A stretch of DNA of 64,000 nt from Maritimibacter harenae (GTDB lineage Bacteria > Pseudomonadota > Alphaproteobacteria > Rhodobacterales > Rhodobacteraceae), in the NCBI RefSeq assembly GCF_009882975.1, contig NZ_WTUX01000017.1, forward strand, positions 200,641-264,640, given 5' to 3'. The notes beneath the pieces were generated by a model that worked only from the letters and a program-made list of their open reading frames with translations, was not told where the DNA came from and did no database searches. This document shows positions 22,033 through 36,597 of this stretch, in pieces. A program made the translations under genes and the position numbers. The first letter of the stretch is position 1; every line of letters starts with the position of its first letter.

Positions 22033-22120
22033 GCGGGCCTCCATGCAAGTTGTGACGCCGTCTTACTGTAGATAGGGTCGAAATTCCAAACGCAAACCTG
22101 TGATGGGAAAGGTCACGCGC

Positions 22121-22459
22121 ATGGATGAGACGCGCATCGCACGCTACCGCGCCGCGCTCGAGACCGCCCTGGCCGAGCTCGACAGCGACGACGACCTGGG
22201 CGCCGAGGGGCAGAAGACCGTCGATCTCGACCAGCAAGCTGTGGGCCGCCTGTCACGCATGGACGCGCTCCAGGGGCAGGCGATGGCCAAGGCGACCGCC
22301 GCCCGGCGCGAAACACAACGGCGCCGGATCGCTGCGGCGTTCGAGCGGATGGACGAGGGCGAATACGGCTACTGCGTCGACTGCGGCGAGGAAATCGCCG
22401 AGAAACGGCTCGACCTCGACCCGGCGGTGCCGACCTGCATTTCCTGCGCGCGTGGATAG
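22121..22459 (+). CDS. DksA/TraR-type C4 zinc-finger protein
   Basis: A 112-residue protein. An N-terminal helical hairpin (coiled coil, about residues 1-75) carries acidic residues at its turn (DSDDDLGAEG). A C4 zinc finger follows, with CVDCGEEI and CISC near the C-terminus. DksA-family proteins act in the RNA polymerase secondary channel and potentiate ppGpp. It is shorter than E. coli DksA (151), so it is called a DksA-like paralogue. AAAGG lies eight bases before the ATG. It converges with the last GTA gene, with only 33 bp between the stops. Confidence 0.82.
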   Translation: MDETRIARYRAALETALAELDSDDDLGAEGQKTVDLDQQAVGRLSRMDALQGQAMAKATAARRETQRRRIAAAFERMDEGEYGYCVDCGEEIAEKRLDLDPAVPTCISCARG

Positions 22460-22492: not shown

Positions 22493-25400
22493 CTAGGACG
22501 GCACGTCGATCCGCGCCGACGGACCCGGGCCGAAGCTCTGCGACAGCTGTGCCACCTCGACCTCGAACGGTGCGATCACTCCGTCGGCGGCCTGCGCTGC
22601 CGCGTCGTAGGTCCAGTGCGGCGCGCTCACCGTCAGCTCCCGCTTCACGGCGCCCCCCTGGCGCACGCGGACGCGGTAGAGCTCCGCCTCCTCGCCCAAG
22701 GGCACGTCCACGCCCTGCCAGCTGTCACCATCCACCCGCGTCCGGCGCACCCAGCTGACCGCCACGTCGCCGCCCGCCCGCGTGGCCCGCAGGTGCACCG
22801 GCGCGTAGGGCCGCAGCCCGACCCCTTGCGTCGTCACCACCGCGTGGTCGTAGGTCGCGTCGTCGATCGGTTCCGAGGCCGGGCCGTAACGGTAGTGGCG
22901 TTCGAGCCCGCGCGCCGACAGCGGCAGGTCGAGCGGCGTGACCGCACCGTCGAGGATGACCACGGTCGCCCCCACCGGCCATTCGTCCGGCATGACCCAT
23001 TCGCTTCCCGCCTGCCCCCGCAGGCGGCCCGAGAGCGCGTAGACGCCCGCCTCGACAAGCTCGGCCTGGGCAAACTGGAACACCTCCCACCCGTCGGGCG
23101 TGCCGAAGCCGATGACGGCCACGTTCTCCCCGTCGAAGAGGCCATCGACCCCGGCCGAGGACAGGGCGCCCCCCAGCATCCGCACGCGCAGCGCAGGACC
23201 GCGGTCGATCAGCCCGGGGCGCGCCCGGGGCAGCACGCTTTCCGTGATCCCGACCCGCGCGCGCGCCGTCACCACCCGGTTCAGGCCGTAGCCGTTGTCG
23301 GTGGTCGAGGAGAACACCGCCACGGGCCCCGGCCAGGGGTCGGCGGTGACGGCCACGCGCGGCAGATGCGCGAGCACGTCGCCGGTGAGCGCCGGGAGGT
23401 CGAGGAAGATCGGATGCACCGGCACCGCAGGGGTGAAGGGGGCGAGCGCCGGGGCACGCTGCGGCGTCTCGGCGGGGGCCAGCACCCCCGGCTCCACGCG
23501 CACGGCCTCGACCATCTGCACCCCGGCCTGCTCCACGTGGTCGATCCGGTAGTGACCGCCCCCCGCCTCGGACGCGATTTCGACGACCTCGCCTGCCTGC
23601 CGTCCCAGCGCGGAGGGCGGCAGCGCGAAACGCGCCCGGTCGCGCGCGACCCGCGCCTCGGCGAGCCAGCGTTCCGCGGTCGCCTGCGCCTCGGCCCCGG
23701 TGAGGACCAGTGGCAGGTCCGAGGTCGAAACCGCCCGCGTTTCCTCGTCCGCGAAGACCGCTTCGGTCGCACGGATGTCATAGGCCGCGTCCGCCTCCGC
23801 ATGGTTGATGCGCACCCGCCCGATCATCTCGGCCTCCGGCGCGCGGGTGAGCTCGAGGTCCCCGTCGATCTCGCCCGTCGCGGCGAGTGTCGCGGGATCG
23901 AGCGTCCCGTCCGGCGCGCCCGAGCGGGTGAAGAATTCAAGCCGCCCGCCCCGCTCGGCCGCCTCGAACCCGTAGGCCAGCATGAGGGGCTGCAGGGCCG
24001 CGCGCGCGTCGGTCACCTGGTCCACGTGATAGCCGCGCAGCAGACCGTGCAAGCGCGTCGTATCGACCCGGGTGACGCCAGAACGGCGGCAGATTTCGGT
24101 CACCACCGCGGCGAGCGACACGTTCGTCGCGCGGCCGTTCAGCCAGTGACCCCGCGCGTAATTCTCCCAGTCGCTCCACGTGTCCCGCAGGCCGGGAAAC
24201 CACGGGAAGGGCCGCGCGTCCCAGGCCCAGGCGTGGGCGCGGGACATGTCGACCATCGTGACCCCGGTGATCGGATGGGTCGGGTTGTGCTCGGGATCGT
24301 CCCAGTACTCGCGCATCGCACGCAGGTACTGCATCTGCATGTAATCGTCGCGCCGCCCGTTCGATTGGCGCGGCAGCGCGCTCTCCGCGCTCTTGGGGTC
24401 GAGGAAGGCGTTGGGCTGGTTCGCCCCCTTGTCGATCGCCGCGCAGCCGTATTCCGTGAACCAGACAGGCTTCGATCCCGCCTGCCAGGCGGTGGGCGCC
24501 GTCTGCCGCACGCCGCCGATCCGCTCGTGGTGCTCATGCTCCCACCAGGACCGGATGTCCTTGTAGCGAAACACCCACGGCTCCCCGTGCGCGCCGTCGG
24601 TGATCGGCGTGCGCAGCTGGACCGCCCGCGCCTCGGGGGCGTGGTAGTACCAATCGTAGCCCTCGCCCCCGGCCACGTTCGCCTTGAGATAGTCGAGGTC
24701 GTAGATCGCCCCCCAGTGCGCATCCGCATGATCGGGGCCTTCGCGCCAGTCGGCGAGCGGCATGTAGTTGTCGATCCCGATGAAGTCGATCTCGTCATCC
24801 GCCCAGAGCGGGTCGAGGTGGAAGTAGACGTCCCCCGATCCGTCCTGCGGGTGGTACCCGAAATACTCGCTCCAGTCAGCGGCGTATGAGATCTTCACGT
24901 CGGGGCCGAGGACCTGGCGCACGTCGGCGGCAAGGCTGCGCAGCGCCGCGACCGCCGGGAACGTGCCGCCCGTGCCCCGGATCTGTGTCAAGCCGCGCAT
25001 CTCTGAGCCGATCAGGAACGCATCCACCCCACCGGCGGCCGCGCAAAGGGCGGCGTAGTGGAGGATGAAGCGCCGGTAGGACCATTCGTCGGGGCCGGAA
25101 TAGCTCACCGTCGCGCCGTCCACCGTGAAATGCTGCGGGCCGGCGGTGCCGAAGAACGCGTCGACCTCGGCATCGGCCGCCGCGGTGCCGTCTGGCGAGC
25201 CGTCCGTGCCCGGCGCTGCCGACAGGGTGATACGCCCGCGCCAGGGCAGCGCCGGCTGGTCCGCCGCCCCGCTCCACGGGTCCGGCAGGCCATTGCCCGC
25301 AAGCTGCTCCATCAGGATGAAAGGATAGAAGGTGACGGCCTGGCCCGCCTGCCGCAGCCGGTCGATCGCCTGCACGACGGATTGGTCCGTGGGCGTGCCG

Positions 25401-26419
25401 CCATAGACCGGCGCGCCGTCCTGCTTCGGCACCTCGCCAGCCTGCGTGCGGGTGAGCCCGGACACGGACCACGGCATCGCGGCACTGTCGCGCGCGCTCT
25501 GCTCCACCCTTGGGTGCAACCCGCAGGCGCCCGCCCGCAGGTCGGTCCCGAACCACGAGACGACCAGCGACACGGCCTCGCAGTTCGGCAGTTCGCCCTC
25601 GAGCATCGACACGGACGCCTCGAAATCCGAGGTCCCCAGCGGCGTGTGCTGGTTGACCGGCATTGCCTCGCCCGGCCGCCCCGAGAAGCGGACGATATCG
25701 GTGGCCAGCGCGTATTCTCCACAGCCCGGGATCAGCGCCACGGCGCGGGTGCCGCGCGCGATCCCGGGCGCCTGGTCGGGCTGCTCCGGGCGCATGACCT
25801 CGAAGTTCAGGACCGGGATACGGTTGCCATAGGCGTTGAGGTCGAGGTTCTCGATGACCACGTAGGCGGTGCCGCGAAACGCGGGCGTGTTCCCGGGGCC
25901 CAGCGCGGCCTCGAGCGCCGGGTCGGGCGCCTGGCTTTCGCTCCCCGGGTAGACGCGCATCGACAGGTGGCCGGGCTTCACTTCGGCCCCGTCCGCCCAG
26001 ACCCGGCCGACCCGCGTGATCTCGCCCTCGCAGAGCGCGATCGCGAGGGTCACGGAATAGGAATACTCGGCCACCGTCGGGCCGGAGGCGGCGAAGCCCT
26101 TGCCCGAGCCGCCGCTTTCAGCCGCGTTCACGTGCCGGTTTTCGCGGATGCGGTCGGCCCAGATCACCTGGCCGCCGACGCGAAACCGCCCGTGGACCCG
26201 GCCGATCGGCGCGCCCTCGGACACGCCGGTGAGGCGCAGGCGACCCAGCTTGCCCGTCTCCACGGCGCGCGAGCCGCCGCCGACGAGCGTGTTGTCGATC
26301 ATGCGCCCGGCGATCGCGCCGACCGCGCGGCCGATCACGACCGACGACAGGCCCAGGACCGAGCCGCCCACGGATGCGCCGACCGCGGCGCCCACGGCGG
26401 AAAGAACGATGGTGGCCAT
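22493..26419 (-). CDS. GTA host-specificity / TIM-barrel-like tail protein (g15)
   Basis: A 1308-residue protein at the distal end of the GTA cluster. An N-terminal glycine-rich hydrophobic segment (residues 1-~40) is followed by tail-hub-like domains. The middle contains a glycoside-hydrolase-like TIM barrel (about 400-800, including IGSEMRGLTQIRG, SYAADWSEYFGYHP and KPVWFTEYGCAAIDKGANQP). The C-terminal half is beta-rich. This matches g15 of the Rhodobacter capsulatus GTA, the megatron/host-specificity component of the base plate. It starts 3 bp after g14. Length is normal for the family. No frameshift is seen. Confidence 0.93.
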   Translation of the reverse strand: MATIVLSAVGAAVGASVGGSVLGLSSVVIGRAVGAIAGRMIDNTLVGGGSRAVETGKLGRLRLTGVSEGAPIGRVHGRFRVGGQVIWADRIRENRHVNAAESGGSGKGFAASGPTVAEYSYSVTLAIALCEGEITRVGRVWADGAEVKPGHLSMRVYPGSESQAPDPALEAALGPGNTPAFRGTAYVVIENLDLNAYGNRIPVLNFEVMRPEQPDQAPGIARGTRAVALIPGCGEYALATDIVRFSGRPGEAMPVNQHTPLGTSDFEASVSMLEGELPNCEAVSLVVSWFGTDLRAGACGLHPRVEQSARDSAAMPWSVSGLTRTQAGEVPKQDGAPVYGGTPTDQSVVQAIDRLRQAGQAVTFYPFILMEQLAGNGLPDPWSGAADQPALPWRGRITLSAAPGTDGSPDGTAAADAEVDAFFGTAGPQHFTVDGATVSYSGPDEWSYRRFILHYAALCAAAGGVDAFLIGSEMRGLTQIRGTGGTFPAVAALRSLAADVRQVLGPDVKISYAADWSEYFGYHPQDGSGDVYFHLDPLWADDEIDFIGIDNYMPLADWREGPDHADAHWGAIYDLDYLKANVAGGEGYDWYYHAPEARAVQLRTPITDGAHGEPWVFRYKDIRSWWEHEHHERIGGVRQTAPTAWQAGSKPVWFTEYGCAAIDKGANQPNAFLDPKSAESALPRQSNGRRDDYMQMQYLRAMREYWDDPEHNPTHPITGVTMVDMSRAHAWAWDARPFPWFPGLRDTWSDWENYARGHWLNGRATNVSLAAVVTEICRRSGVTRVDTTRLHGLLRGYHVDQVTDARAALQPLMLAYGFEAAERGGRLEFFTRSGAPDGTLDPATLAATGEIDGDLELTRAPEAEMIGRVRINHAEADAAYDIRATEAVFADEETRAVSTSDLPLVLTGAEAQATAERWLAEARVARDRARFALPPSALGRQAGEVVEIASEAGGGHYRIDHVEQAGVQMVEAVRVEPGVLAPAETPQRAPALAPFTPAVPVHPIFLDLPALTGDVLAHLPRVAVTADPWPGPVAVFSSTTDNGYGLNRVVTARARVGITESVLPRARPGLIDRGPALRVRMLGGALSSAGVDGLFDGENVAVIGFGTPDGWEVFQFAQAELVEAGVYALSGRLRGQAGSEWVMPDEWPVGATVVILDGAVTPLDLPLSARGLERHYRYGPASEPIDDATYDHAVVTTQGVGLRPYAPVHLRATRAGGDVAVSWVRRTRVDGDSWQGVDVPLGEEAELYRVRVRQGGAVKRELTVSAPHWTYDAAAQAADGVIAPFEVEVAQLSQSFGPGPSARIDVPS

Positions 26420-26422
26420 GTG

Positions 26423-26860
26423 CTACCCCCTTTCGGGAAACCTGAATGCGCCCACGATCCGGCGCCGCCACGGCGCGGAGAGCGAGCTTTCGACAACGCC
26501 GTGACCGGCGTAGGCGTGGATGAAGGTGGGCGCGGCTCCGGTGGCGGCGAGAATGCCCAGGTGCTTGGCCACCGCGCCGGCGCGCATGCGGAAAAGCACC
26601 ACGTCGCCGGGGCGCGCGGCCTCGATGCGCAGCGCGACGAGGTGCGCGGTCGCGGCGCGCAGCAGGACCTCGTCGCGCGCGGGCTCGGACCAGTCGGCGG
26701 TGTAGGCCGGCACCGGGGCCGGCTCGTCCCCGTGAAGCGCGCGCCAGACACCGCGCACGAGCCCGAGGCAATCCGCCCCCGCGCCCCGGCAGGAGGCCTG
26801 GTGGCGATAGGGCGTGCCGAGCCAGGCGCGCGCCTCCGCCACGACCGCTTCGCCCCTCAT
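26423..26860 (-). CDS. GTA NlpC/P60 cell-wall peptidase (g14)
   Basis: A 145-residue NlpC/P60 protein starting at the ATG at 26860, which overlaps the g13 stop in an ATGA junction. The catalytic cysteine is in GADCLGLVRGVW (about residues 28-39) and the histidine is in AKHLGILAATG. In the R. capsulatus GTA the equivalent protein sits in the tail tip and is thought to cut peptidoglycan during DNA delivery. Longer in-frame ORFs upstream are out of context and arginine-rich, so they are excluded. Confidence 0.92.
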   Translation of the reverse strand: MRGEAVVAEARAWLGTPYRHQASCRGAGADCLGLVRGVWRALHGDEPAPVPAYTADWSEPARDEVLLRAATAHLVALRIEAARPGDVVLFRMRAGAVAKHLGILAATGAAPTFIHAYAGHGVVESSLSAPWRRRIVGAFRFPERG

Positions 26861-27744
26861 TTGCCACCCCCGGTGGTATCCACCGTCGTGCCGGTGACGG
26901 GCACGGACAGCAGCCGATCCTCGCCCGGGACATGGGGGAAGCCGCGGAAGTTGACGATGTTGGCGAACCTGTCGCGGCAGGTTTCGAGCCGCTTGTCGCA
27001 CCCGGCCTCGATCCGCACCCGGTCGCCGGGGGCGAGCGGCGCGCGCAGCGCCTGCCACAGCTCCACGTGGCGCCCCGCCGCGCCCGGCGCGTCGTTCTTG
27101 ATCACGCCCGTCAGCCCGGCCGCCTCCCCGTCCAGCACGCGCAGGCGCCCCTTGGCGAACCAGCGTTCCGGCTGCGCGATTTCGCCCTCGAGCGTCAGGC
27201 GCACCTCGTCCTCCACGCGAAGGACCGTGCAGGTCTCGGAAAACCCCGGCTGATCCAGGTCGACGCCGCAGCGCGTGTCACCCAGCACCGCCGAACAGGC
27301 GGACTGGTAGACCCGCCCCTGCGGCTGGTTCAGCGCCTCGGACAGCCCGAGGAGCTCCGCGCGAAACGCGCCGCCCGCCCGCGTGAGTTCGCCCAACGTG
27401 CCATGGAGCTGGAGCACGCGTTCGGCCGGGTCGGCCCAGTTGACCAGCCACGCCTCGACCTCGGCCCCGTCGAAGCGTCCGGCGCGGATGTCCGCCTCGC
27501 TCACCGCCGCGTCCGACAGCGCGCCCAGCGCCTCGCTGTTGTCGATGGCGAGCCCGGTGGTCTGCATGATGGCGTGGGCGGTAAGCCCGGTCTCGGCGCG
27601 GAAGGTCACGCCGTCGAAGGCGAGATCCCGGTCGTGGTCGGTGAACCCGCGCACCCAGCCGTCCCGGCGGCGCAGAAGCCAGCAGCGCGCCAGCGTGGTC
27701 AGCCCGCCCTGGAGGTGGTCGAGGAATGCTTCGCTCATGTGCAT
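26857..27744 (-). CDS. GTA distal tail/hub protein, DUF2163 family (g13)
   Basis: A 295-residue protein beginning MHMSEAFLDHLQGGLTTLARCWLLRR. It matches the DUF2163/BR0599 family found next to tail genes in GTAs and siphophages, with ESGLTAHAIM-like ETGLTAHAIMQTTGLAID near residue 50 and CVxxxW-type cysteine motifs toward the C-terminus (ACSAVLGDTRCGVD; EAGCDKRLETCRDRF). These cysteines bind an Fe-S cluster in the R. capsulatus hub. The ATG at 27744 overlaps the g12 stop (ATGA on reading TGATG) and has GGAGG ten bases upstream; ATG at 27738 is the alternative. Confidence 0.9.
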   Translation of the reverse strand: MHMSEAFLDHLQGGLTTLARCWLLRRRDGWVRGFTDHDRDLAFDGVTFRAETGLTAHAIMQTTGLAIDNSEALGALSDAAVSEADIRAGRFDGAEVEAWLVNWADPAERVLQLHGTLGELTRAGGAFRAELLGLSEALNQPQGRVYQSACSAVLGDTRCGVDLDQPGFSETCTVLRVEDEVRLTLEGEIAQPERWFAKGRLRVLDGEAAGLTGVIKNDAPGAAGRHVELWQALRAPLAPGDRVRIEAGCDKRLETCRDRFANIVNFRGFPHVPGEDRLLSVPVTGTTVDTTGGGK

Positions 27745-28376
27745 CAGACCCGCACCTCCACCACCGGCACGTCGGGCACCTCGCCCGCCTGGAACGAGGC
27801 GACCGATGTCCGGATGCGGTCCGTGTCGAACCGCACCGGCACGTCGAACTCGAAGCCCGCGCTCACGGCCGCGCCCACGGGCGGCGGCGCGGCGAAGGTG
27901 ATCGTTCCGGAGGTCGTGTCGACCTCGTAATCGACGGTCTCGACCTGCGGCACACCGGCGATCGCGACCGTCACGCTGCCCGCGACGGGTTTCACGATCG
28001 GGCGCGCGTAGGTGTTCGTCCCCGAAGCATAGACCTTGACCAGCTGGAAGACGTGTTCGACCCCGTCCCCCTCCCCAAGCGGCTGGTCGAGCGGGTCGAT
28101 TTCCCGCGACGGTTTCGTGGACTTGTAATCGGCCCAGTCCTTCCACCGGAACCCATGAAGCTGCCCCTGCCGCGCCTCGAAGAAGGCGATCAGCGTCTCG
28201 ATATCGTCGAGCGAGCGCATCCCCAGCCCCGCGTCGTAGCGCCGCCGCGAATGGGCCCAGGGGGTGTTGCGTTCCTCGAACCCGTTGGCCAGCGTCACCA
28301 CCTCGGTGCGCCGCTCCGGCCCGCCGACCGAGCCGAAGCTCAGGGTGGGCGGGAATCTCACCTCGTGAAAGGACAT
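27744..28376 (-). CDS. GTA distal tail protein, DUF2460 family (g12)
   Basis: A 210-residue DUF2460 protein, with the family N-terminus FHEVRFPPTLSFGSVGGPERRTEV and the conserved NTPWAHSRRRYDAG segment. The second half is an all-beta domain. In the GTA particle this protein forms the distal tail ring joining the tube to the hub. It lies between the tape-measure gene (11-bp gap) and g13 (overlapping stop/start). Confidence 0.92.
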   Translation of the reverse strand: MSFHEVRFPPTLSFGSVGGPERRTEVVTLANGFEERNTPWAHSRRRYDAGLGMRSLDDIETLIAFFEARQGQLHGFRWKDWADYKSTKPSREIDPLDQPLGEGDGVEHVFQLVKVYASGTNTYARPIVKPVAGSVTVAIAGVPQVETVDYEVDTTSGTITFAAPPPVGAAVSAGFEFDVPVRFDTDRIRTSVASFQAGEVPDVPVVEVRV

Positions 28377-28387
28377 GGGCTTCCTCC

Positions 28388-29050
28388 TCAGCTGTAGCGC
28401 GCGCCGCGCCCGAGGACACGGTTCACCTGCGCGGCAACCTGGCCCTGCGAGCGGCGGAAGCTTTCCGCGTCCGGCGTCGTGATGTTCATGACGATGGTGA
28501 CCGGGTGCCCCCGCCCCTCGGCGCGCACGCCGAGCTTGCCGTCGGGCCCCCGGGTGAGCGGCATGATCGCCTCAGGCCCCGCCTCGCCCATGAGGCCCGT
28601 GGCCCCGCGCATGGGAAAGCTCACCGGCCCGTTCACCACGCCGCCATCGGCGAACGGCATCACCCGTCCCTGCGCGAAGGCGCCGCCATTGGCGTAGGGC
28701 AGGAAGGCGTTCATCACCGACCCCAGCCCCTGCCCGAGCAGCCCGCCCACGTGATCCACCATCGGCGAGACCGCCGCATCGTAGACGGTGTCGAGCATCG
28801 ACCGGCCCAGCGCGCGCATCGCCTCCTCGGCGTTCATGGACCCGTGCACCAGGCCGTCGAGCGACCGGCGCAGCCCCTGCGTCATTCCCGAGGACAGGCC
28901 CGAGGCGTCCGTGCTCACCTTGTCGAAGGTGGCGCCCACCCGCGCGATCTCGGCGGTGAACTGCGCCGTGAGCGCGTTCGCGCCCTGAAGCGTGGCCTCG
29001 AGGGCCGCGACCTGGTCGTCGAACGCCTCGAGGCTGTCGAAATCATCCAT
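28388..29050 (-). CDS. GTA tail tape-measure protein (g11)
   Basis: A 220-residue short tape-measure protein, in line with the short tail of GTA particles. The N-terminal half is helical (LEAFDDQVAALEATLQGANALT); the C-terminal half has the typical GGAFAQGRVMPFADGGVV and GLMGEAGPEAIMPLTRGPDGKLGV motifs of phage tape-measure proteins. AGGAG lies six bases before the ATG chosen at 29050. Three alternative upstream codons give no family similarity. Confidence 0.9.
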   Translation of the reverse strand: MDDFDSLEAFDDQVAALEATLQGANALTAQFTAEIARVGATFDKVSTDASGLSSGMTQGLRRSLDGLVHGSMNAEEAMRALGRSMLDTVYDAAVSPMVDHVGGLLGQGLGSVMNAFLPYANGGAFAQGRVMPFADGGVVNGPVSFPMRGATGLMGEAGPEAIMPLTRGPDGKLGVRAEGRGHPVTIVMNITTPDAESFRRSQGQVAAQVNRVLGRGARYS

Positions 29051-29243
29051 CGTCATCTCCTGTCGTCGTGTCGGGAAAGGCGCGCGCGAGATCGTCGAGT
29101 CGCGCCCGGTCGAGCGCACCCGCCCCGTCGCGCCCCAGCATCAGCGTGAGTTCGGCCGGCGTGAGCGCCCAGAAGTCGCGCGGGGCAAGGCCCAGCCCGC
29201 GCACCCCCAGCCGCATGAGCCCCGGCCAGTCGAAACCGCTCAC
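29043..29243 (-). CDS. GTA small tail-assembly protein (g10.1)
   Basis: A 66-residue protein starting at a GTG (29243) that overlaps the g10 stop in a GTGA junction; its own stop overlaps the g11 start. The sequence DWPGLMRLGVRGLGLAPRDFWALTPAELTLMLG is typical of the small phage tail-assembly chaperone-like proteins placed between g10 and g11 in GTA clusters. It is easily missed because the longer frame running through it is spurious. Confidence 0.85.
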   Translation of the reverse strand: MSGFDWPGLMRLGVRGLGLAPRDFWALTPAELTLMLGRDGAGALDRARLDDLARAFPDTTTGDDDG

Positions 29244-29557
29244 GCGCCCGCCTCCGGCAGGGTGAAGGCACGCACGATAAGCTGCCCCGCCACCCGGGCC
29301 GCCTCCATGGGGCCGCCGGCGATCTCGGCGCCGGCAAGGTCCACGCCCTCGTGACCGCCGCCACGCAACCCCGCCACCAGCACCGCGATCACGTCGCGTG
29401 CCGAGAAGCGGCCCGTTTCGAAGCGCCCCACGAGGTCCATCAGGCTGTCGGCCTCCAGCCGCGCCTCGAGCTCGGCCAGTGCGCCCAGCGTGAGCTTGAG
29501 CACCCGGCGCTCGCCATCCACGGTCAGCGCCACTTCTCCGGTCCAGGGATTGGCCAT
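29240..29557 (-). CDS. GTA tail-assembly protein gp10 family (g10)
   Basis: A 105-residue protein beginning MANPWTGEVALTVDGERRVLKLTLG, with the ALAELEARLEADSLMDLVGRFE segment of the GTA-gp10 family. By analogy with phage lambda gpG and its frameshift product, g10 and g10.1 are thought to chaperone the tape measure during tail assembly. It starts two bases after the major tail protein gene ends. Confidence 0.9.
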   Translation of the reverse strand: MANPWTGEVALTVDGERRVLKLTLGALAELEARLEADSLMDLVGRFETGRFSARDVIAVLVAGLRGGGHEGVDLAGAEIAGGPMEAARVAGQLIVRAFTLPEAGA

Positions 29558-29559
29558 GA

Positions 29560-29973
29560 TCAGAGCGCCGTGAAACCAAGTTCACCGGCCGAGGCCATCG
29601 ACATCTCGAAGGTGGCCTCCCCGTTGTGGGTGCCGGCATACTCGATCGCGGTGATCATGAAGCGGCCCTGCAGGATGCCGAAATCCGGCACGATCACCTG
29701 GAACTCCGGCAACTCGCCGTCGAAGAAGATCTGGCGTGCACGCGCGTCGGTGGCTGCATCCTTGAAGATGCCCGAACCCGAGAGCGCGGCGGATTTGACG
29801 CCCGCGCCCCCCAGAAGCTCGCGCCACCCCCCGGCGCTGTCGAGCGAGGTGACATCCACGCTCTCGGCATTGAGGCTGAGCCGCGTAGCGCGCAGGCCCG
29901 CGAGGGTGGAAAAGTTGCCCGTGTCGTCCATGTCGAGCTTGATGAGAAGGTCTTTGCCGGTCTGTGCGGTCAT
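29560..29973 (-). CDS. GTA major tail tube protein (g9)
   Basis: A 137-residue phage major tail protein of the TP901-1-like/GTA family. It begins TAQTGKDLLIKLDMDDTGNFSTLAGLRATR, contains VDVTSLDSAGGWRELLGGAGVKSAALSGSGIF, and ends with a beta-rich tube domain. Its hexamers are expected to stack into the tail tube. It lies 23 bp after g8, a slightly larger gap than most in the cluster, with room for a local RBS. Confidence 0.93.
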   Translation of the reverse strand: MTAQTGKDLLIKLDMDDTGNFSTLAGLRATRLSLNAESVDVTSLDSAGGWRELLGGAGVKSAALSGSGIFKDAATDARARQIFFDGELPEFQVIVPDFGILQGRFMITAIEYAGTHNGEATFEMSMASAGELGFTAL

Positions 29974-29996
29974 GGCAGGTCTCCGTGATCTGGGGT

Positions 29997-30407
29997 TCAG
30001 CTGTCTTCGATCCGGGCGCGAAAGCGCAGGTCGATGCGCCGCATGTCGGCGTCCTGCACCCGGCGGGCCCGGGCGCGGTGGAAATCGAGCGACACGAGCG
30101 TGCCGCGGGCGAGCGTCAGCGGGGCATCGACGAGGGCATCGGATACGGCCACGGCGGCCTCCTTCGCGGTGGAAAAGCCGCCCGCGTCCGAGATCACGCT
30201 CACGGTCACATCGTGGCGCGCGCCCATCCCGGTCATGTCCGAGGCGTCGCGCACATCCTCGGGGCCAAGCGCGACATAGGTGCCGCCAGTGACCCCGGCG
30301 GGCACCGCGTCGAAGATCGCGTCTCCGACGAGCGCGGCCAGCGTCGGGTCGGCGGTGAGCGCCTCGTAGATCGCCTGTTGCAGGGCGAGCGCGGGTCCAT
30401 AGCTCAT
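29997..30407 (-). CDS. GTA tail terminator, DUF3168 family (g8)
   Basis: A 136-residue DUF3168 protein: LALQQAIYEALTADPTLAALVGDAIFDAVPAG at the N-terminus and a C-terminal RIDLRFRARIED strand. DUF3168 proteins cap the head-proximal end of the tail tube. The start overlaps the g7 stop by 4 bp (ATGA). Confidence 0.9.
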   Translation of the reverse strand: MSYGPALALQQAIYEALTADPTLAALVGDAIFDAVPAGVTGGTYVALGPEDVRDASDMTGMGARHDVTVSVISDAGGFSTAKEAAVAVSDALVDAPLTLARGTLVSLDFHRARARRVQDADMRRIDLRFRARIEDS

Positions 30408-30742
30408 GCCGACACCTCCTCGTGCGCGAAACAGGTCAGGTAGCGCCCTGCGCTGTCGGCCTCCGCCACCGCGAGAATGCGGAAGACCCGGGCACCTGCG
30501 CGGAACCGCTGGTCGGGGCGCGGGCGCGACGGCGCGCCATGCGGCGCGGCGCGCACCGTGATCTTCCAGGGCACCCGCGAGGCCGTCGTCGCCTCGACTG
30601 CGCGTTCGCGCCCGGTGCCCGCCCTGAGTTCGGCCCAGTGTTCACCCAGCGCGACCCAGGTGCGGCGGTGCCCCCCGGCCCCGTCCGCGATGTCCTCGGG
30701 CGCCTCCAGCGTCAGCTTGCGGTTCAGGTTCGGCCGTTTCAT
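30404..30742 (-). CDS. GTA head-tail adaptor / stopper (g7)
   Basis: A 112-residue head-tail joining protein beginning MKRPNLNRKLTLEAPEDIADGAGGHRRTWVALGEHWAEL, the layout of the phage SPP1 gp16/HK97 gp7-like stopper family. The ATG at 30742 overlaps the g6 stop. A longer in-frame ORF extends upstream but runs through g6 in another frame and is rejected. Confidence 0.9.
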   Translation of the reverse strand: MKRPNLNRKLTLEAPEDIADGAGGHRRTWVALGEHWAELRAGTGRERAVEATTASRVPWKITVRAAPHGAPSRPRPDQRFRAGARVFRILAVAEADSAGRYLTCFAHEEVSA

Positions 30743-31332
30743 GCGCGCCCTCCCCCGAAAAGCCGCAGGTCGCGGTAGGTTTCGGTCAGGGCCGCCACGC
30801 TGTCGGGGAGCTTCGACGACCCCGGCATCGCGCGCGCCTCGTAATACTGCGCAGCCAGCAGGAACACGGCATGGGCCAGGTCCGGGGGCACGTCTTCCCA
30901 GCCGGACGCGAAGCCGGCCTCGAACACCATCTCCGCGCGCCCGTTCACCGGGATCTGCGGCAGGCAGAAGCCGGTCGACACGATCCGCGGACGATGGGTG
31001 TCGGGGATCAGCGTGTAGCGGGCCGGGTCGATCGCCTCGGTCACGCCCAGCCGGTCGACGATGGTGAGCGACGTGACCGCGCTCACCGGCGCGATCGGCA
31101 GGACCTGCGCCGACAGGTCGCGCCAGGCCCCCACGCTCCACTGGAACCCGCGGGCGAGGATCGCCTTGGACGTGCGCGCCTCGATCGCGGCAATGGCGGC
31201 ACGCAGATGGGCCTCCAGCACGCCGTCCTGCACGTCGTCGTCGGCAAACCCCGTGCCGAGCCGCAGGTGGTCCTTGAACGCCTGGACCGGCAGGACACCG
31301 CTGGCGATCGTCGTCTGCTCGACTAACATCAT
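30739..31332 (-). CDS. GTA head-tail connector (g6)
   Basis: A 197-residue gp6-like connector. The helical N-terminus (VQAFKDHLRLGTGFADDDVQDGVLEAHLRAAIAAIEARTSKAIL) and the segment MVFEAGFASGWEDVPPDLAHAVFLLAAQYYEAR fit the phage gp6-like adaptor family, which sits below the portal. It is the first gene after the 154-bp gap downstream of the capsid gene, suggesting a separate RBS or processing point there. Confidence 0.9.
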   Translation of the reverse strand: MMLVEQTTIASGVLPVQAFKDHLRLGTGFADDDVQDGVLEAHLRAAIAAIEARTSKAILARGFQWSVGAWRDLSAQVLPIAPVSAVTSLTIVDRLGVTEAIDPARYTLIPDTHRPRIVSTGFCLPQIPVNGRAEMVFEAGFASGWEDVPPDLAHAVFLLAAQYYEARAMPGSSKLPDSVAALTETYRDLRLFGGGRA

Positions 31333-31452
31333 GGATCAACTCCGAAATTCCGGCCCCTCGCGTACCTGGTGCGGGCGCGCGCCTCCCCAGTCGCCCGGAC
31401 GGGAGGGGACACAACCAAGCGACACCGGGACACGGCGCGCACCCGTCGCCGC

Positions 31453-31470
31453 GCCGGCCCGGGGGCCGGC
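31453..31470 (-). other. GC-rich hairpin downstream of the capsid gene
   Basis: GCCGGCC-CGGG-GGCCGGC, a perfect 7-bp stem with a 4-base loop, begins 16 bp beyond the stop of the capsid gene inside the largest gap of the GTA operon. No T-run follows on the minus strand, so it is more likely to protect the upstream mRNA end or slow polymerase than to terminate fully. Confidence 0.45.
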
Positions 31471-31486
31471 ACGACATCCCGCTCGA

Positions 31487-32686
31487 TCAGGAGATCGAGA
31501 ACTTCAGAAGCTTGATCGCCGCGAAATCGCTCACGTCGCCGCCGACGCGCTTGGTCGCGTAGAACAGCACGTGCGGCTTGGCCGAGAACGGGTCGCGCAG
31601 GATGCGGGTGTCGGGGCGTTCGGCCACGGTGTAGCCCGCCTGGAAATCCCCGAAGGCCACGGGCGTGGTGCCCGAGCCGATGTCCGGCATGTCCTCGACG
31701 ATGAGCACCGGGTACCCCGCAAGCCGCGCGGGCGTGTCCGCGGTCAGCCCGTCGGACCACAGGAAGCGCCCGTCGGCGTCCTTGAGTTTGCGCATGGCCC
31801 CCGCGGTGCGCGAGTTCATCACGAAGCTCGCGCCGGCGCGGTACTCGGCATCGAGCGCGTAGACCAGGTCGAACAGGCAGTCGACCGGGTTCAGCGCGTC
31901 GAAATCGCCGTCCGCGCCGGTGGGCACGTAGCCGATGTTGCCCCAGCTCCAGCTCGCGTCCGCGACCGCCGGATGGGTGAGGAACCCCGTGGGCTTGTCG
32001 ACCCCGTCGCCCGACACGAAGGCGGCGGCCTCGGCCCGGGCGAACTTGTCGGCGATCCGGCCCGCGAGCCAGCTTTCGATGTCGAAGGCGGCATCGTCCA
32101 GCAGGCGTTGCGACGCCTTGGGCAGCGCCGACAGCTCATGCAGCGGGATGGTGATCCGCTCGATTGTCGGGGTGGCCGTTTCGGTCGCCGGATCGGTCTC
32201 GGTCGCCCAGCCGGAGCCAAGGTCCCCGTGGTCGATCAGCACATCGTAGGAGGTCGCCTCCACGTTCACCACGTTGGCCACGGCCCGGAGCGACGCGTTG
32301 GAGCGCAGCACGCTCTGGATCACGTCCGCCGTCTTGGGATCGACCAGGTAGCCCCCGTCACCGGCGACCGCCGTGGAGATGCTCTTTTCCTCGATGACGA
32401 TGCCGCGCAGGGCGTCTTCGTCGCCCGAGCGCAGGTAGGCCTCGAACGCCTTCTGGTGCGGGGCTTCGGGGTCCGCGGTGGTGGCCAGCGCCGGGCGCGC
32501 GGGCGAGAGGGATTTACGATCCAGCATGGTCAGTCGCTCTTCCTGTTGTTGAAGTCGGGAATAAATGTCGTCGTTGAACGAATTGATATCGCTCACGAAA
32601 CGGGTCAGGGCGGATTTGACCTCCGCGGTGGGATCCGCACCCGCGGGCGCGTCCGACGGCCCATGAGCCTTGGTCTCTTTCGTCAT
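31487..32686 (-). CDS. GTA major capsid protein, HK97 fold (g5)
   Basis: A 399-residue HK97-type capsid protein. Residues 1-~110 form a helical scaffold-like region (delta domain) removed in homologues by the g4 protease; the mature part begins near GIVIEEKSISTAVAGDGGYLV. Conserved strands include IDHGDLGSGWATETDPATETATPTI, SWLAGRIADKFARAEAAAFVSGDG and the C-terminal FYATKRVGGDVSDFAAIKLLKFS. The ATG at 32686 has AAGGA seven bases upstream. The capsid encloses about 4 kb of random host DNA in the R. capsulatus GTA. Confidence 0.95.
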   Translation of the reverse strand: MTKETKAHGPSDAPAGADPTAEVKSALTRFVSDINSFNDDIYSRLQQQEERLTMLDRKSLSPARPALATTADPEAPHQKAFEAYLRSGDEDALRGIVIEEKSISTAVAGDGGYLVDPKTADVIQSVLRSNASLRAVANVVNVEATSYDVLIDHGDLGSGWATETDPATETATPTIERITIPLHELSALPKASQRLLDDAAFDIESWLAGRIADKFARAEAAAFVSGDGVDKPTGFLTHPAVADASWSWGNIGYVPTGADGDFDALNPVDCLFDLVYALDAEYRAGASFVMNSRTAGAMRKLKDADGRFLWSDGLTADTPARLAGYPVLIVEDMPDIGSGTTPVAFGDFQAGYTVAERPDTRILRDPFSAKPHVLFYATKRVGGDVSDFAAIKLLKFSIS

Positions 32687-32702
32687 CACGTGATCCTTTT
32701 CA

Positions 32703-33290
32703 TCAGAGGGTCGGATCGCCGCCCGAACCGTGCCGGGGCAGCATCAGGCGGGCATCCTCGATGATGCGCGCCAACTGGCGGAGCCCGGTCGCCGCGGGCC
32801 CGTCACCCTTGGCCCCGATCCGCGCACTGGGCAGCATGGGAAAGGTCACGAGCGACACCTCCCACAGTTCCAGTTCCTGCAAGAGCCGCCGGCCCTTGTC
32901 GGTCTTCGTGGCGCGCAGGGTCCGATACCCGATCGACAGCCCGTCGATGGCCCCGGCCCGGATCAGCCGCGCGGCCTCGCGCCCGGTGTCCACGTCGGTG
33001 AGGATCCGGCCCTTCACGTAAAGCCCGCGCGCATCCTCGCGCACGTCGTCCCACACACCGATGGGCCGGACCGGGTCGTGCTGCCACAGCATCTTCACCC
33101 GCCCCCCGTTCGCCGCCAGCGCCGCGAGGCTCTTGGCATAGGCCCCCGGGGCGACCACGTCGCCGCCGCGATCGGGCTTGCCGAACAAGCTGGCGTAACC
33201 GGCGATCTCGATCCCGTCGTCGACGGTGCGCGTGTCCCCGATCGCCGCGAACTTGTGTTCGAGCCCGGTGAGCGTGCGTTCCTCATCCAT
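32703..33290 (-). CDS. GTA prohead protease, HK97 family (g4)
   Basis: A 195-residue U35-type protease. EIAGYASLFGKPDRGGDVVAPGAY (about 29-52), the catalytic histidine in KMLWQHDPVRPIG and the serine in AIDGLSIGYRTLR fit the family; a downstream acidic residue in the ELELWEVSLVTFPM strand completes the site. It processes the g5 precursor during capsid maturation. It overlaps the g3 stop by 8 bp and lies 16 bp before g5. Confidence 0.93.
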   Translation of the reverse strand: MDEERTLTGLEHKFAAIGDTRTVDDGIEIAGYASLFGKPDRGGDVVAPGAYAKSLAALAANGGRVKMLWQHDPVRPIGVWDDVREDARGLYVKGRILTDVDTGREAARLIRAGAIDGLSIGYRTLRATKTDKGRRLLQELELWEVSLVTFPMLPSARIGAKGDGPAATGLRQLARIIEDARLMLPRHGSGGDPTL

Positions 33291-34479
33291 TCTGCGTCTC
33301 CTCGGTGTCGGGGGTCAGGGGCGGCAGGCCCAGAAGGGCGCGCTTCTCGTCGTCGGTCAGGAAATCGGCCGCGGTGACGCGCGCCCATTGCTGGTCGCGC
33401 TCGGCGGCAAGCGCGGGCACCTGGTCCAGATCGGGCTTCAGCGTGACCGTCTCACCGGCGAACCCGGACAGCCAATGCGCCAGCGTCGCCGCGACCCGGC
33501 TGGCCAGCGGCAGCACCGTCAGGCGATAGAACGCGCGGTTGGCCTCCTGGTAATTCGCGTAGGTCGCGTCGCCAGGGATGCCCAGAAGCATCGGCGGCAC
33601 GCCGAAGGCCGTCGCGATCTCGCGCGCCGCGGCCTCCTTGGTTTTCTGGAACTCCATGTCCGAGGGCGAGAACCCCATCGGCTTCCAGTCGAGCCCGCCC
33701 TCGAGCAGCATCGGCCGGCCCGCGTTGCGCGCGCCCACGTGATGCGCCTCCATCTCGTTCAGCAGCCGGTCGTACTGGTCGGGCGTCAGCGTGCCCTGAC
33801 CCTCGCCACCGGAATAGACGATCGCGCCCGAGGGCCGCGCGGCATTGTCCAGCAGCGCCTTCGACCAGGCCGTCGCGGCGCTGTGAACGTCGAGCGCGGT
33901 GGCCGCCGCCTGCATGGGCGAGAGACCGTAGTGGTCGTCCTGCGGATGGAAGGTGCGCACGTGGCAGATGGGCGACAGCCCCTCGCCGACATGGAAGCGG
34001 TGGCGTTTCGCCCCCACGGTGTAGTCATAGGCCACCGGCCACCCGTCCGGGCCCGGCACCAGGCTCATCCGGTCCGAGCGCAGGACGTGCAGTTCCAGCG
34101 GCACGCCGGCGTCGCCCCCCACCGCCTCGACATAGCCATTGCCGGACAGAAGCACCTGGCCGAAGAGCGCCTCGAACAGGTCCGCCCGCCCCTGCGCCGG
34201 GTTGGGACGCGTGACGAGGTCGAGGATTGGGTGCGCGTCGAAGCGCTGGCGGCTGTCCTGGAGCACCAGCGGCAGGGCCGCCGCGGCCTCGGCGATGAGC
34301 TTTACGGCCCTGAACCCCACCGGGTTCGCGGCGAAGCCGTTGCGCGTCAGGTTCACCGTGTCGCGCGGCCCCCAGACCACGCGGCCGGACCCGCGGTAGG
34401 CGATCACCGGGCCGGTCGCCGAGCTCTTTGTCTCGTCGGCCGTGTCGCTTGCGCGTTTCAGGAAATCCAGTACCGCCAT
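33283..34479 (-). CDS. GTA portal protein (g3)
   Basis: A 398-residue HK97-type portal protein. It begins MAVLDFLKRASDTADETKSS; the family segment NPVGFRAVKLIAEAAAALPL and NPAQGRADLFEALFGQVLLSGNGYVE (about 45-115) and the C-terminal AFGVPPMLLGIPGDATYANYQEANRAFYRLTVLPL are clear. The start at 34479 has GAGGAG upstream. The 173 bp between it and g2 hold no gene. In some clusters a small g3.5 lies next to the portal gene; here g3 and g4 overlap, so g3.5 is absent. Confidence 0.94.
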   Translation of the reverse strand: MAVLDFLKRASDTADETKSSATGPVIAYRGSGRVVWGPRDTVNLTRNGFAANPVGFRAVKLIAEAAAALPLVLQDSRQRFDAHPILDLVTRPNPAQGRADLFEALFGQVLLSGNGYVEAVGGDAGVPLELHVLRSDRMSLVPGPDGWPVAYDYTVGAKRHRFHVGEGLSPICHVRTFHPQDDHYGLSPMQAAATALDVHSAATAWSKALLDNAARPSGAIVYSGGEGQGTLTPDQYDRLLNEMEAHHVGARNAGRPMLLEGGLDWKPMGFSPSDMEFQKTKEAAAREIATAFGVPPMLLGIPGDATYANYQEANRAFYRLTVLPLASRVAATLAHWLSGFAGETVTLKPDLDQVPALAAERDQQWARVTAADFLTDDEKRALLGLPPLTPDTEETQNG

Positions 34480-34652
34480 TCTGTCACGCTCCTCGTGTGT
34501 CACCGGGAAACCCGGCCGCCCGTCCCGTGTCCGCACGCCGGGGCGCACGGGGGGCACGGTCGGTTTTTCGATTTCGGATCAGGGCCTTGCCTTCGGGCGC
34601 CGCCGGTCACCTCCGACGCTTTGCACCCTCGCAGGCAGGGTTAAATTTTCCT

Positions 34653-36038
34653 TTAAGGCAGCGTACGCACCTGCGGACGCCGAATGTCGCGGGCCGGCAG
34701 GATCATCAGGTCGTGGATCGCCCAGACCAGCGCGTCGAGCCGGTCGGGGCTGCCCGCCCCCTCGTAGCCGCGGATCGTCATCTGGCACATCTGGTCCTCC
34801 AGCGCGCCCAGGCCCCGCAGATGCGACACGCGGCCCTGCTCGTAGAGCGCCGCCACCGGTTCGGCCCGCGCGGCCTTGCCCTTCGCCGCGCGCACGGCGC
34901 GGTAGGGCACCAGCGCGTCGATCTGTCGGATCACGCTCTCCACCAGGTCGCCGCCCTGGTTCACCTCGGCCACCAGCCGGTCGGCCCCGTGCCGGGCGAC
35001 CGCGTCCAGCGCAGCGCGCGCCCAGTCGGTTGGCTTGGCGGCCGAAACGCTCGCGTCCTCCAGCACCACCGCGCGCCATTGCGCCGGGGGCCCCTCGGTC
35101 AGCGCGCCCGCCACCACGATCCCGCATTCGTCCGACCCCGCGTGCCCCGTCACAGGCGGGTCGACCGCCACGACGACGCGCGTGAACGCAGGCGGCGCGT
35201 CGGTGCGCACGGCCTCCAGCCCCGCGGTGGTCCAGAGCGCCCCCTCCCGGTCCTCCAGCAGCAACCCCTCGAGCTCCTGGCGCCCGGTCCGCGTACCGCC
35301 GTAGCGCGCCTCCACCTCCTCTAGAAACCCGGGGGCGAGGTTCGCCCGGTTGGCCGCCGTCGCCGCGTGCGTCGACACCGTGGAGCGCGCACCCAGGATG
35401 GTGCGCAGGATCGCCACGTCTCGCGGCGTGGTCGTGACCACCTGGCGCGGATCGTCGCCCAGCCGCAGCGCGAACTGCAGCATGTCCCAGGCCACGTCGG
35501 CCTTCTTCCACTTGGCCAGCTCGTCCACCCAGGCCGCATCGAACTGCGGCCCGCGCAATGCTTCGGGCTCGGAGGCCGAAAAGGTCTGCGCCTCGGCCCC
35601 GTTGGGCCAGACCAGGCGCCGGCGGGTGGCCAGCCATTCGGGCCTTCGGTCGGGCGGCGAGCACGCCAGAATGCCGCTTTCGCCGAACACCATCACGTCG
35701 CGCGCCTGGTCGTATGTCTCGGCCACCAGCGCCACGCGCCGGGACCGCCCGGGATCAGAGGGCCGCGCGCCCTCGACACGGCCCCGCACCCACTCGGCGC
35801 CTGCACGCGTCTTGCCCGCCCCGCGCCCGCCGAGGATCACCCAGCTGCGCCACGCGCCCTCCGGCGGAAGCTGATGGTCCAGCGCCCAGAACTCGAACAA
35901 GAAGGGCAACGCCGCCAACGTCGCGTCGTCGAGGCCCTGCAGGACCTCAGTCCGGGTCGCTTTCGGCAGCGAGGCGATCCAACCGGCATTCAAGCGCCTG
36001 CCGCGCGTCGTCGAGGTCGAAGTCCTGGGTTTCGTCAT
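34653..36038 (-). CDS. GTA terminase large subunit (g2)
   Basis: A 461-residue packaging ATPase/nuclease. The Walker A motif is VILGGRGAGKTRAGAEW (about residues 70-86), the DEAD-like Walker B region is FDAAWVDELAKW, and the RNase H-like nuclease begins VVVAVDPPVTGHAGSDECGIVV (about 290-310). The ATG at 36038 has GAGGG upstream but lies 92 bp inside g1; a TTG at 35993 would shorten the protein by 15 residues. GTA terminases package DNA nonspecifically by a headful mechanism. Confidence 0.94.
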   Translation of the reverse strand: MTKPRTSTSTTRGRRLNAGWIASLPKATRTEVLQGLDDATLAALPFLFEFWALDHQLPPEGAWRSWVILGGRGAGKTRAGAEWVRGRVEGARPSDPGRSRRVALVAETYDQARDVMVFGESGILACSPPDRRPEWLATRRRLVWPNGAEAQTFSASEPEALRGPQFDAAWVDELAKWKKADVAWDMLQFALRLGDDPRQVVTTTPRDVAILRTILGARSTVSTHAATAANRANLAPGFLEEVEARYGGTRTGRQELEGLLLEDREGALWTTAGLEAVRTDAPPAFTRVVVAVDPPVTGHAGSDECGIVVAGALTEGPPAQWRAVVLEDASVSAAKPTDWARAALDAVARHGADRLVAEVNQGGDLVESVIRQIDALVPYRAVRAAKGKAARAEPVAALYEQGRVSHLRGLGALEDQMCQMTIRGYEGAGSPDRLDALVWAIHDLMILPARDIRRPQVRTLP

Positions 36039-36261
36039 CACCACCCTCTTTCAGGCACAAGGCATCCACGCGGCGGCGTTCTTCGAACAGGACCTGCATT
36101 GCCTTGCGCAGGTCCGACGCGCTGTCCTTCGCGGCGCGCGCCGTGTCGACCTCGCCCGCTTCAACCGCCCCGATCAGGGCGTTGAGCGCCCGCAGGGCCC
36201 GCTCGAAATGGTCGATCGCGATCCGGTGGATCGCCATGTCGTCCGTCGGCTCGTCCATCAT
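35947..36261 (-). CDS. GTA terminase small subunit (g1)
   Basis: A 104-residue, mostly helical protein from the ATG at 36261. It has a long helix ERALRALNALIGAVEAGEVDTARAAKDSASDLRKAMQVLFEERRRVDAL and an acidic C-terminus (DDETQDFDLDDARQALE, ESDPD). It occupies the first position of the cluster, where g1 of R. capsulatus encodes the small terminase, and shows the same helix-plus-acidic-tail layout. It overlaps g2 by 92 bp in another frame. Start choice among 36261, 36258 and 36285 is uncertain. Confidence 0.82.
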   Translation of the reverse strand: MMDEPTDDMAIHRIAIDHFERALRALNALIGAVEAGEVDTARAAKDSASDLRKAMQVLFEERRRVDALCLKEGGDDETQDFDLDDARQALECRLDRLAAESDPD

Positions 36262-36597
36262 GTTTCCGCCCGTTCTGCCCGCCACCCCGGCACCGCACCG
36301 AGGCCGGTCGTCATCATCCGAAGACTGTCCGAAAGGACGTCAACGGCGTGCCAAGCGGGCGTCCGCTGCATTAGGCGCCCGGGTGATTCTCCCATGATCC
36401 GCCGCTAAGCCCGTGAAACCGGTCGGTTTTCCCGAAACCATCGGCGAAAAGCCGCGATTGCGGGCCAAACAGCGCTCAGAGCCCGACAAACGGGCCGGCT
36501 TTCCCTTCCCATGACGGTGCGCCTGCTATAGTTTCCCAAAGACTTCCGGGACTTGGCCCGGGCAGGAACTGACATCGCACCGGGCAAAACACAGGCC
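36262..36597. promoter_or_regulatory. Divergent region between the GTA operon and the PilM/PilP-like gene
   Basis: This 336-bp stretch has no gene and should contain the GTA operon promoter on the minus strand, where the GTA activator GafA would act in Rhodobacter. On the plus strand TATAGT at 36527-36532 is a good -10 candidate for the gene starting at 36598, without a convincing -35. Several short GC hairpins are present but no clear symmetric operator was seen. Confidence 0.45.

Follow-up and report, generated by a model that had tools for sequence, protein, structure and literature searches.

Does Maritimibacter harenae carry a gene transfer agent (GTA), a virus-like carrier of random host DNA between marine bacteria, that can still be made, and what decides when it is made? 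The question is raised by a run of phage-like genes on the minus strand (36261..22493) of the window, the whole stretch of 64,000 nucleotides analysed here (G000:C57:200641-264640 of a 4.25-Mb draft genome). We consider it very probable that this run is a complete, long-kept GTA cluster of the type known from Rhodobacter capsulatus (RcGTA), and from its genes it looks functional. As a cluster it is ordinary and well kept for its order, and its kind is already known; the part of the work that is worth follow-up is the apparent rewiring of the promoter of gafA, the activator gene, where DnaA may have replaced CtrA in Maritimibacter.

Identity and layout of the cluster

The cluster consists of 16 open genes in RcGTA order, beginning with the ATG of g1 (36261) and ending with the stop codon of g15 (22493). 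An earlier note, made from the letters alone, had proposed such an order from small terminase to host-specificity protein, and open reading frames, Pfam and NCBIfam families and relatives all bear it out. The genes are:

35947..36261, minus strand: g1, small terminase, 104 amino acids (open reading frame; all 6 intact genus clusters, and the congener G002, have a homologue next to g2)
34653..36044, minus strand: g2, large terminase, 463 amino acids (Pfam Terminase_6N 2.3e-29, Terminase_6C 2.1e-15)
33283..34479, minus strand: g3, portal (Phage_portal 1e-90; RcGTA portal Rcc01684, 636 bits)
32703..33290, minus strand: g4, prohead serine protease (Peptidase_S78 7.6e-31)
31487..32689, minus strand: g5, major capsid protein (Phage_capsid 1.4e-88; RcGTA capsid Rcc01687, 601 bits)
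30739..31332, minus strand: g6, head-tail connector (TIGR02215 2.2e-45)
30404..30742, minus strand: g7, head completion (Phage_HCP 2.3e-25)
29997..30407, minus strand: g8, tail completion, gp17-like (Tail_completion_gp17 7.6e-35)
29560..29973, minus strand: g9, tail tube (Phage_tail_2 1.6e-46; RcGTA tube Rcc01691, 227 bits)
29240..29557, minus strand: g10, tail assembly protein, GTA-gp10 (Phage_TAC_11 2.2e-26)
29043..29243, minus strand: g10.1, tail assembly chaperone (Phage_TAC_6 9.4e-23)
28388..29050, minus strand: g11, short tape measure, 220 amino acids (NF058675 RcGTA_tape 326 bits, cut-off 220; no Pfam match)
27744..28376, minus strand: g12, distal tail protein (TIGR02217, Rcc01695 family, 282 bits, cut-off 137)
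26857..27744, minus strand: g13, baseplate hub (phiJL001_Gp84_N 6.6e-58, BR0599 9.1e-31; RcGTA chain 6tba_7A, 333 bits)
26423..26860, minus strand: g14, NlpC/P60 peptidase (TIGR02219 185 bits, cut-off 82)
22493..26419, minus strand: g15, megatron baseplate protein, 1308 amino acids (NF048004 GTA_megatron 1875 bits, cut-off 800; RcGTA chain 6tba_8A, 1585 bits)

Pfam or NCBIfam families were assigned to 15 of the 16 genes. The remaining one, g1, had no match in Pfam or PHROGs and was therefore named from its place, its size and its homology to the g1 of relatives. Two NCBIfam equivalogs specific to GTA-type particles exceeded their cut-offs, RcGTA_tape (NF058675) and GTA_megatron (NF048004), and when six window proteins were searched against solved structures the best match was an RcGTA chain for five of them (capsid, portal, tail tube, hub and megatron).

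The catalytic segments pointed out in the earlier note are present: GGRGAGKT and FDAAWVDE in the terminase, KMLWQHDP and DGLSIGY in the protease, and the Cys and His segments of the NlpC/P60 peptidase, motifs which we take to have catalytic roles in these enzymes. Each residue of GGRGAGKT, KMLWQHDP and DGLSIGY was at least 97% identical across the loci compared (74 of 80 aligned for g2, 75 of 80 for g4), and inactivating substitutions, which had been named as grounds for doubt, were not seen in the cluster. In-frame stops did appear in the tblastn rows of relatives for g4 (13 of 75 loci) and g14 (1 of 75), within the last 3-9 residues, so that the relatives' genes end a little earlier. The statement that junctions overlap or are a few bases apart held for 12 of the 15, the figures depending on the start codons chosen: four overlap by exactly 4 bases (g6/g7, g7/g8, g10/g10.1, g13/g14), and eight more range from an 8-base overlap to a 23-base gap. 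It did not hold for g1/g2 (98-base overlap), g2/g3 (173-base gap, from ATG 34479) or g5/g6 (154-base gap).

Conservation and selection

All 16 genes are present, in the same order, in six of the seven other genomes of the genus. Pairwise ratios of nonsynonymous to synonymous change (dN/dS) were calculated by the Nei-Gojobori method for 21 pairs per gene and, for comparison, for 15 pairs of the downstream gene cysE. Rough medians ran from 0.08 (g9) to 0.32 (g6) across g2-g15 and stayed below 0.5 in all 16 genes; that of cysE was 0.10. These values speak strongly against g2-g15 decaying neutrally and, together with the cluster's presence across the genus, point to purifying selection and vertical maintenance, the outcome for which the earlier note had proposed the calculation.

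Satellite genes elsewhere in the genome

Regulation and release had been expected to be encoded outside the window, and they are: a genome search recovered gafA, whose absence would have spoken for a broken system, together with an endolysin and a holin gene. gafA lies at C51:586942, divergent from a DUF6477 gene, and encodes 363 amino acids with a C-terminal DUF6456 domain; the N-terminus gave a weak helix-turn-helix (HTH) match, under its cut-off. The endolysin, of family GH108 with a peptidoglycan-binding domain, is at C51:355563, and a GTA holin with three transmembrane segments is at C51:356186, overlapping the end of the endolysin gene. Head-spike genes had likewise been expected elsewhere. 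A candidate, a DUF2793 protein, is encoded at C67:303486, DUF2793 being linked to GhsB; its structural match, given below, lies outside RcGTA. A tailspike candidate is proposed because TspA is reported to be encoded next to lysS in Rhodobacterales (PMC13420450): a 769-amino-acid beta-helix protein (L274:1156-3462), with a weak beta-helix match, about 4 kb from lysS. In this genome cydAB sit between the two.

DnaA boxes and CtrA sites at gafA

The published CtrA site at gafA is TTAAC-N6-GTAAC (PMC6363796). With at most one mismatch, it was found in 65 of 90 gafA promoters from other genomes of the family (shuffles, 1.7), as against none of the eight promoters of the genus. These 90 were drawn from 111 other family genomes with a match, the omitted ones having mostly weaker matches. 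In six of the eight genus genomes, an exact DnaA box, TGTGGATAA, lies 64-74 bp from the gafA start codon; a second exact box lies 30 bp upstream in three genomes, this one included, and, inverted, 69 bp upstream in three. Shuffling the 8-kb locus 200 times never gave two boxes, the number seen at gafA. An exact box was also present within 260 bp before the gafA start in 12 of the 90 other family promoters; 0.15 were expected, and 1998 draws of shuffled 9-mers all stayed below 12. Genome-wide the box is not enriched: there are nine exact copies in the 4.25 Mb, two of them at gafA, against 15 of a reversed control word.

Because some gafA starts had been set wrongly (L041 at least), the counts were repeated on promoters anchored on the HTH motif, 14 of the 90 family loci being dropped as unanchored. 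TTAAC-N6-GTAAC with at most one mismatch was then present in 59 of 76 family promoters (shuffles, 0.7) and in none of the eight of the genus, and the exact DnaA box in 9 of 76 and six of eight, respectively (at most 3 in 2000 shuffled 9-mer draws). Of the 76 family promoters, 64 had a looser CtrA form, TTAA-N7-TTAA with at most one mismatch (shuffles, 7.2). In the genus it occurred in two of eight, those of G003 and G007, which are the two without boxes, and in none of the six box-bearing ones. The two kinds of site are not exclusive, since 8 of the 12 box-bearing family promoters also keep a CtrA-like site.

Whether in most of the genus, this genome included, gafA has left direct CtrA control and joined a DnaA regulon with ccrM, smc, nrdR and others is, on these sequences, an evenly balanced question. 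By eye, the lower of the two boxes in this genome falls between an apparent -35 (TTGCCT) and -10 (TAAGGT) of gafA, which suggests repression. On the simplest reading, DnaA would repress gafA during growth, and the repression would be relieved when DnaA falls in starvation. If this is true, lysis and gene transfer would be tied to the end of chromosome replication, and DnaA control may set when the bacterium kills itself to spread DNA, a case made at the level of sequence. The timing of GTA production in a subpopulation is still debated, and the gafA promoter provides a concrete test case. That control of gafA may vary is suggested by Phaeobacter inhibens, whose gafA is reported not to have responded when the CtrA phosphorelay was lost; the GTA cluster of the strain used was almost silent (PMC12363192). 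Excerpts of the GTA and gafA literature (PMC6363796, PMC9638019, PMC6473078, PMC8116508, PMC11150451, PMC12363192), which largely leave subscription papers uncovered, name no DnaA box at gafA.

The sites at gafA might instead be GafA's own, which we judge unlikely. GafA is reported to bind its own promoter and to have a DnaA-like N-terminal domain (PMC6363796, PMC9638019), but in R. capsulatus the binding of its N-terminus to the gafA promoter was only non-specific (PMC9638019), and in Caulobacter the element used by the homologue GafY contains ACTATG (PMC11150451). Moreover, no TTWTNCACA box was found in the eight genus genomes upstream of g1, the endolysin gene or the DUF2793 gene (the start codons of the last being uncertain), where GafA should act, and exactly the same box stands beside ccrM, smc and nrdR.

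The box pair of this genome lies at L042 (G000:C51) 2557-2760, and pairs were also seen at L040, L043, L045, L046 and L047. Separately, paired words like CACAACCTA and GTGTTGCG occur upstream of gafA in family loci L181-L270, and CGCAACAC, on either strand, is in 46 of the 90 family gafA promoters, where 0.6 were expected.

Candidate DnaA regulon

Outside gafA, this genome has seven exact boxes. Three stand beside smc, ccrM and nrdR, one separates miaA from an AraC gene and another ftsZ from bamD, one adjoins a gene that by eye is plasmid partition-like, and one is inside an open reading frame. The sites at nrdR, ccrM and miaA-AraC recur beside the same genes in six genomes each (G000, G001, G002, G004, G006, G007), the smc site in six (G000, G001, G002, G004, G005, G007) and the ftsZ-bamD site in three. 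Sites that are not in this genome recur at nrdJ, for class II ribonucleotide reductase (three genomes), uvrC (three) and dnaB (two). By chance, a box would fall within 1.2 kb of a given place in 0.5-1.5% of cases per genome; for 25 of the 70 box loci in the survey, no other genome had a counterpart. The survey covers the single word TGTGGATAA; its exact sites were read completely in this genome (7/7 outside gafA) and in G001 (11/11), G002 (11/11), G004 (14/14) and G007 (15/15), in part in G006 (12/17) and G005 (2/17), and at none of 13 places in G003.

Two observations count against assigning these sites to DnaA: the promoters of G003 and G007 have no exact TGTGGATAA, and TTWTNCACA does not occur within 8 kb at the genome's own dnaA. 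With none near dnaA and oriC not located, the naming of TGTGGATAA as a DnaA box rests on gene neighbourhoods. Replication and cell-cycle genes are the expected content of a DnaA regulon.

The loci at smc, ccrM, nrdR, miaA/AraC and ftsZ-bamD (L281, L284, L282, L280 and L279) together form a candidate DnaA regulon of this genome. Small proteins with a DnaA C-terminal domain are encoded at L030 (G007) and L031 (G003), only in the two genomes without gafA boxes. A link between them and the missing boxes was considered and set aside: the two are probably unrelated, and the small genes lie beside methyltransferase-like, probably phage, genes (by eye).

The region upstream of g1

The 336-bp intergenic region between g1 and the divergent gene beside it contains three blocks common to members of the genus. 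The alignment comprised seven of the eight genus genomes, L018 being omitted (g1 not found by tblastn). Two of the blocks are in all seven:

36441..36456, minus strand: CGCGGSTTTTYGCCGA, candidate part of the g1 promoter (7/7 aligned genus intergenic regions)
36522..36537, minus strand: GGGAAACTATNGCAGG, the ACTAT block, candidate GafA site or -10 of the divergent gene (7/7 genus regions aligned)

They are spaced 75-76 bp apart in each of the seven; the third, AGAATCA, is in five of seven. Because the Caulobacter GafY element is reported to contain ACTATG upstream of the core promoter (PMC11150451), GGGAAACTATNGCAGG could be a GafA site, or equally an extended -10 (TGCTATAGT) of the divergent gene. 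A GafA motif shared across promoters was sought and rejected, the best occurrences of CGCGGSTTTTYGCCGA at the endolysin and DUF2793 genes having at least 4 mismatches in 16. Of 71 upstream regions from named loci, only 6 contained CGCGGSTTTTYGCCGA with 0-2 mismatches; it is not a general feature of the family and is therefore left as a genus-level block.

A deletion in one congener

The capsid gene g5 is present in seven of the eight genus genomes and missing from G002, which is listed at 100% completeness in 20 contigs. There, contig C1 joins a match to window position 35520 (in g2) to one at 24448 (in g15) within four bases. This junction (L145, G002:C1:1061410/1061414) represents an in-frame deletion of ~11 kb that fuses the TerL N-terminus to the megatron C-terminus, in a frame of 906 open codons comprising TerL residues ~9-176 and megatron residues ~653-1306; no match to g3-g14 was left in the 16 kb searched at the locus. 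Unless it is an assembly error, the deletion looks recent, because what is left of the two genes has changed no faster than intact copies have (dN/dS: G002 pairs 0.14-0.26, intact pairs 0.09-0.31). G002 retains gafA, the holin gene and the DUF2793 gene. With its head-tail genes lost and activator and holin kept, it offers a natural comparison.

Proposed working and alternatives

GafA, made from another contig, would turn on the g1-g15 operon via the intergenic region at 36262-36597. The products would assemble into a short-tailed particle with a small head, TerS and TerL would fill the head with host DNA, and the separate endolysin and holin pair would lyse the producing cell. For expression, assembly, random packaging, release and delivery, we infer this course from R. 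capsulatus.

A cluster that looks complete but is silent, giving no particles under any condition, is an unlikely account. It would fit the congener that lacks the middle of its cluster but has kept gafA, the holin gene and the DUF2793 gene, and the report that P. inhibens hardly expresses its GTA (PMC12363192); the intact frames, the purifying selection in g2-g15 and the presence of the satellite genes argue against it.

The flanks of the cluster are of host type, and among the three nearest neighbours, which were scanned, there were no phage families and no phage replication or lysogeny genes:

21217..22044, minus strand: cysE, serine acetyltransferase, downstream of g15 (SATase_N 4.9e-38)
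22100..22459, plus strand: DksA/TraR-like gene between g15 and cysE, a neighbour and not part of the GTA (zf-dskA_traR 4.2e-10)
36598-39429: divergent gene beside g1, 943 amino acids (no Pfam match; adjoins the cluster in aligned genus members)

A defective siphovirus prophage merely resembling a GTA would share the phage-like character of all the structural modules, but this very improbable and already largely refuted alternative was rejected on the GTA equivalogs (short RcGTA-type tape measure and megatron), these neighbours, the order kept in six of seven other genus genomes with low dN/dS, and the presence, on the same contig, of a separate prophage-like region that has terminase, portal and head genes of its own. 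A second GTA in the genome was also rejected, the only other capsid match (C57:410581, 30% identity) sitting in that region. The region itself (L021, G000:C57:402985-418596) lies near the contig end and contains terminase, portal, protease, capsid, tape measure and replication-like genes.

Several observations weigh against a complete and working RcGTA-type system. g1 is the least constrained gene, with a median dN/dS of 0.49 and a largest value of 1.26 among 21 pairs; its frame overlaps that of g2, and poor conservation is reported for the small terminases of GTAs, which fits its weak constraint (PMC6854486). The dN/dS values are rough because synonymous differences are large (proportion pS 0.31-0.74 in our own comparisons). 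The solved-structure matches of g14 were cellular NlpC/P60 enzymes only, with no RcGTA chain, and the sole match of the DUF2793 protein was a chain of entry 8gtc, not the RcGTA head spike. Since g3 and g4 overlap here, there is no gene between them, the absent one being presumably g3.5. RcGTA is described as having 17 genes (PMC6854486), against 16 here. R. capsulatus g16 begins 3 bases after g15 (PMC9552610), whereas no same-strand counterpart directly follows g15 here, a comparison of position only. Lastly, particle production by the host is supposed by analogy, genes alone having been read here.

Comparison with known systems

Compared with RcGTA (rcc01682-rcc01698), the cluster is alike in gene order, families, short tape measure, megatron and the presence of cysE downstream, and in having gafA and the lysis pair at separate loci (PMC9552610). 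In R. capsulatus, cysE1 downstream of the GTA cluster is reported to affect receipt of GTA DNA (PMC9552610). Unlike R. capsulatus, M. harenae has the DksA/TraR-like gene, on the opposite strand, between g15 and cysE, and the divergent 943-amino-acid gene, rather than yceG, upstream of g1.

Within the genus, M. alkaliphilus HTCC2654 and other Maritimibacter have the same cluster; the closest named loci for the capsid gene are from Maritimibacter, with 87% identity to that of HTCC2654. The cluster of G001 shows ordinary divergence (42-90% identity per gene), and G001 has two exact DnaA boxes at its gafA. A study that used protected extracellular DNA to infer GTA producers already reports a Maritimibacter GTA cluster among them (PMC10582014), so that the present cluster is not new in kind.

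Compared with the CtrA-driven gafA promoters described from Rhodobacterales (PMC6363796), those of the genus likewise belong to a gafA orthologue with a divergent DUF6477 neighbour. They differ in their sites: a near-exact TTAAC-N6-GTAAC is in 0/8 of the genus promoters, and two exact DnaA boxes are in 6/8.

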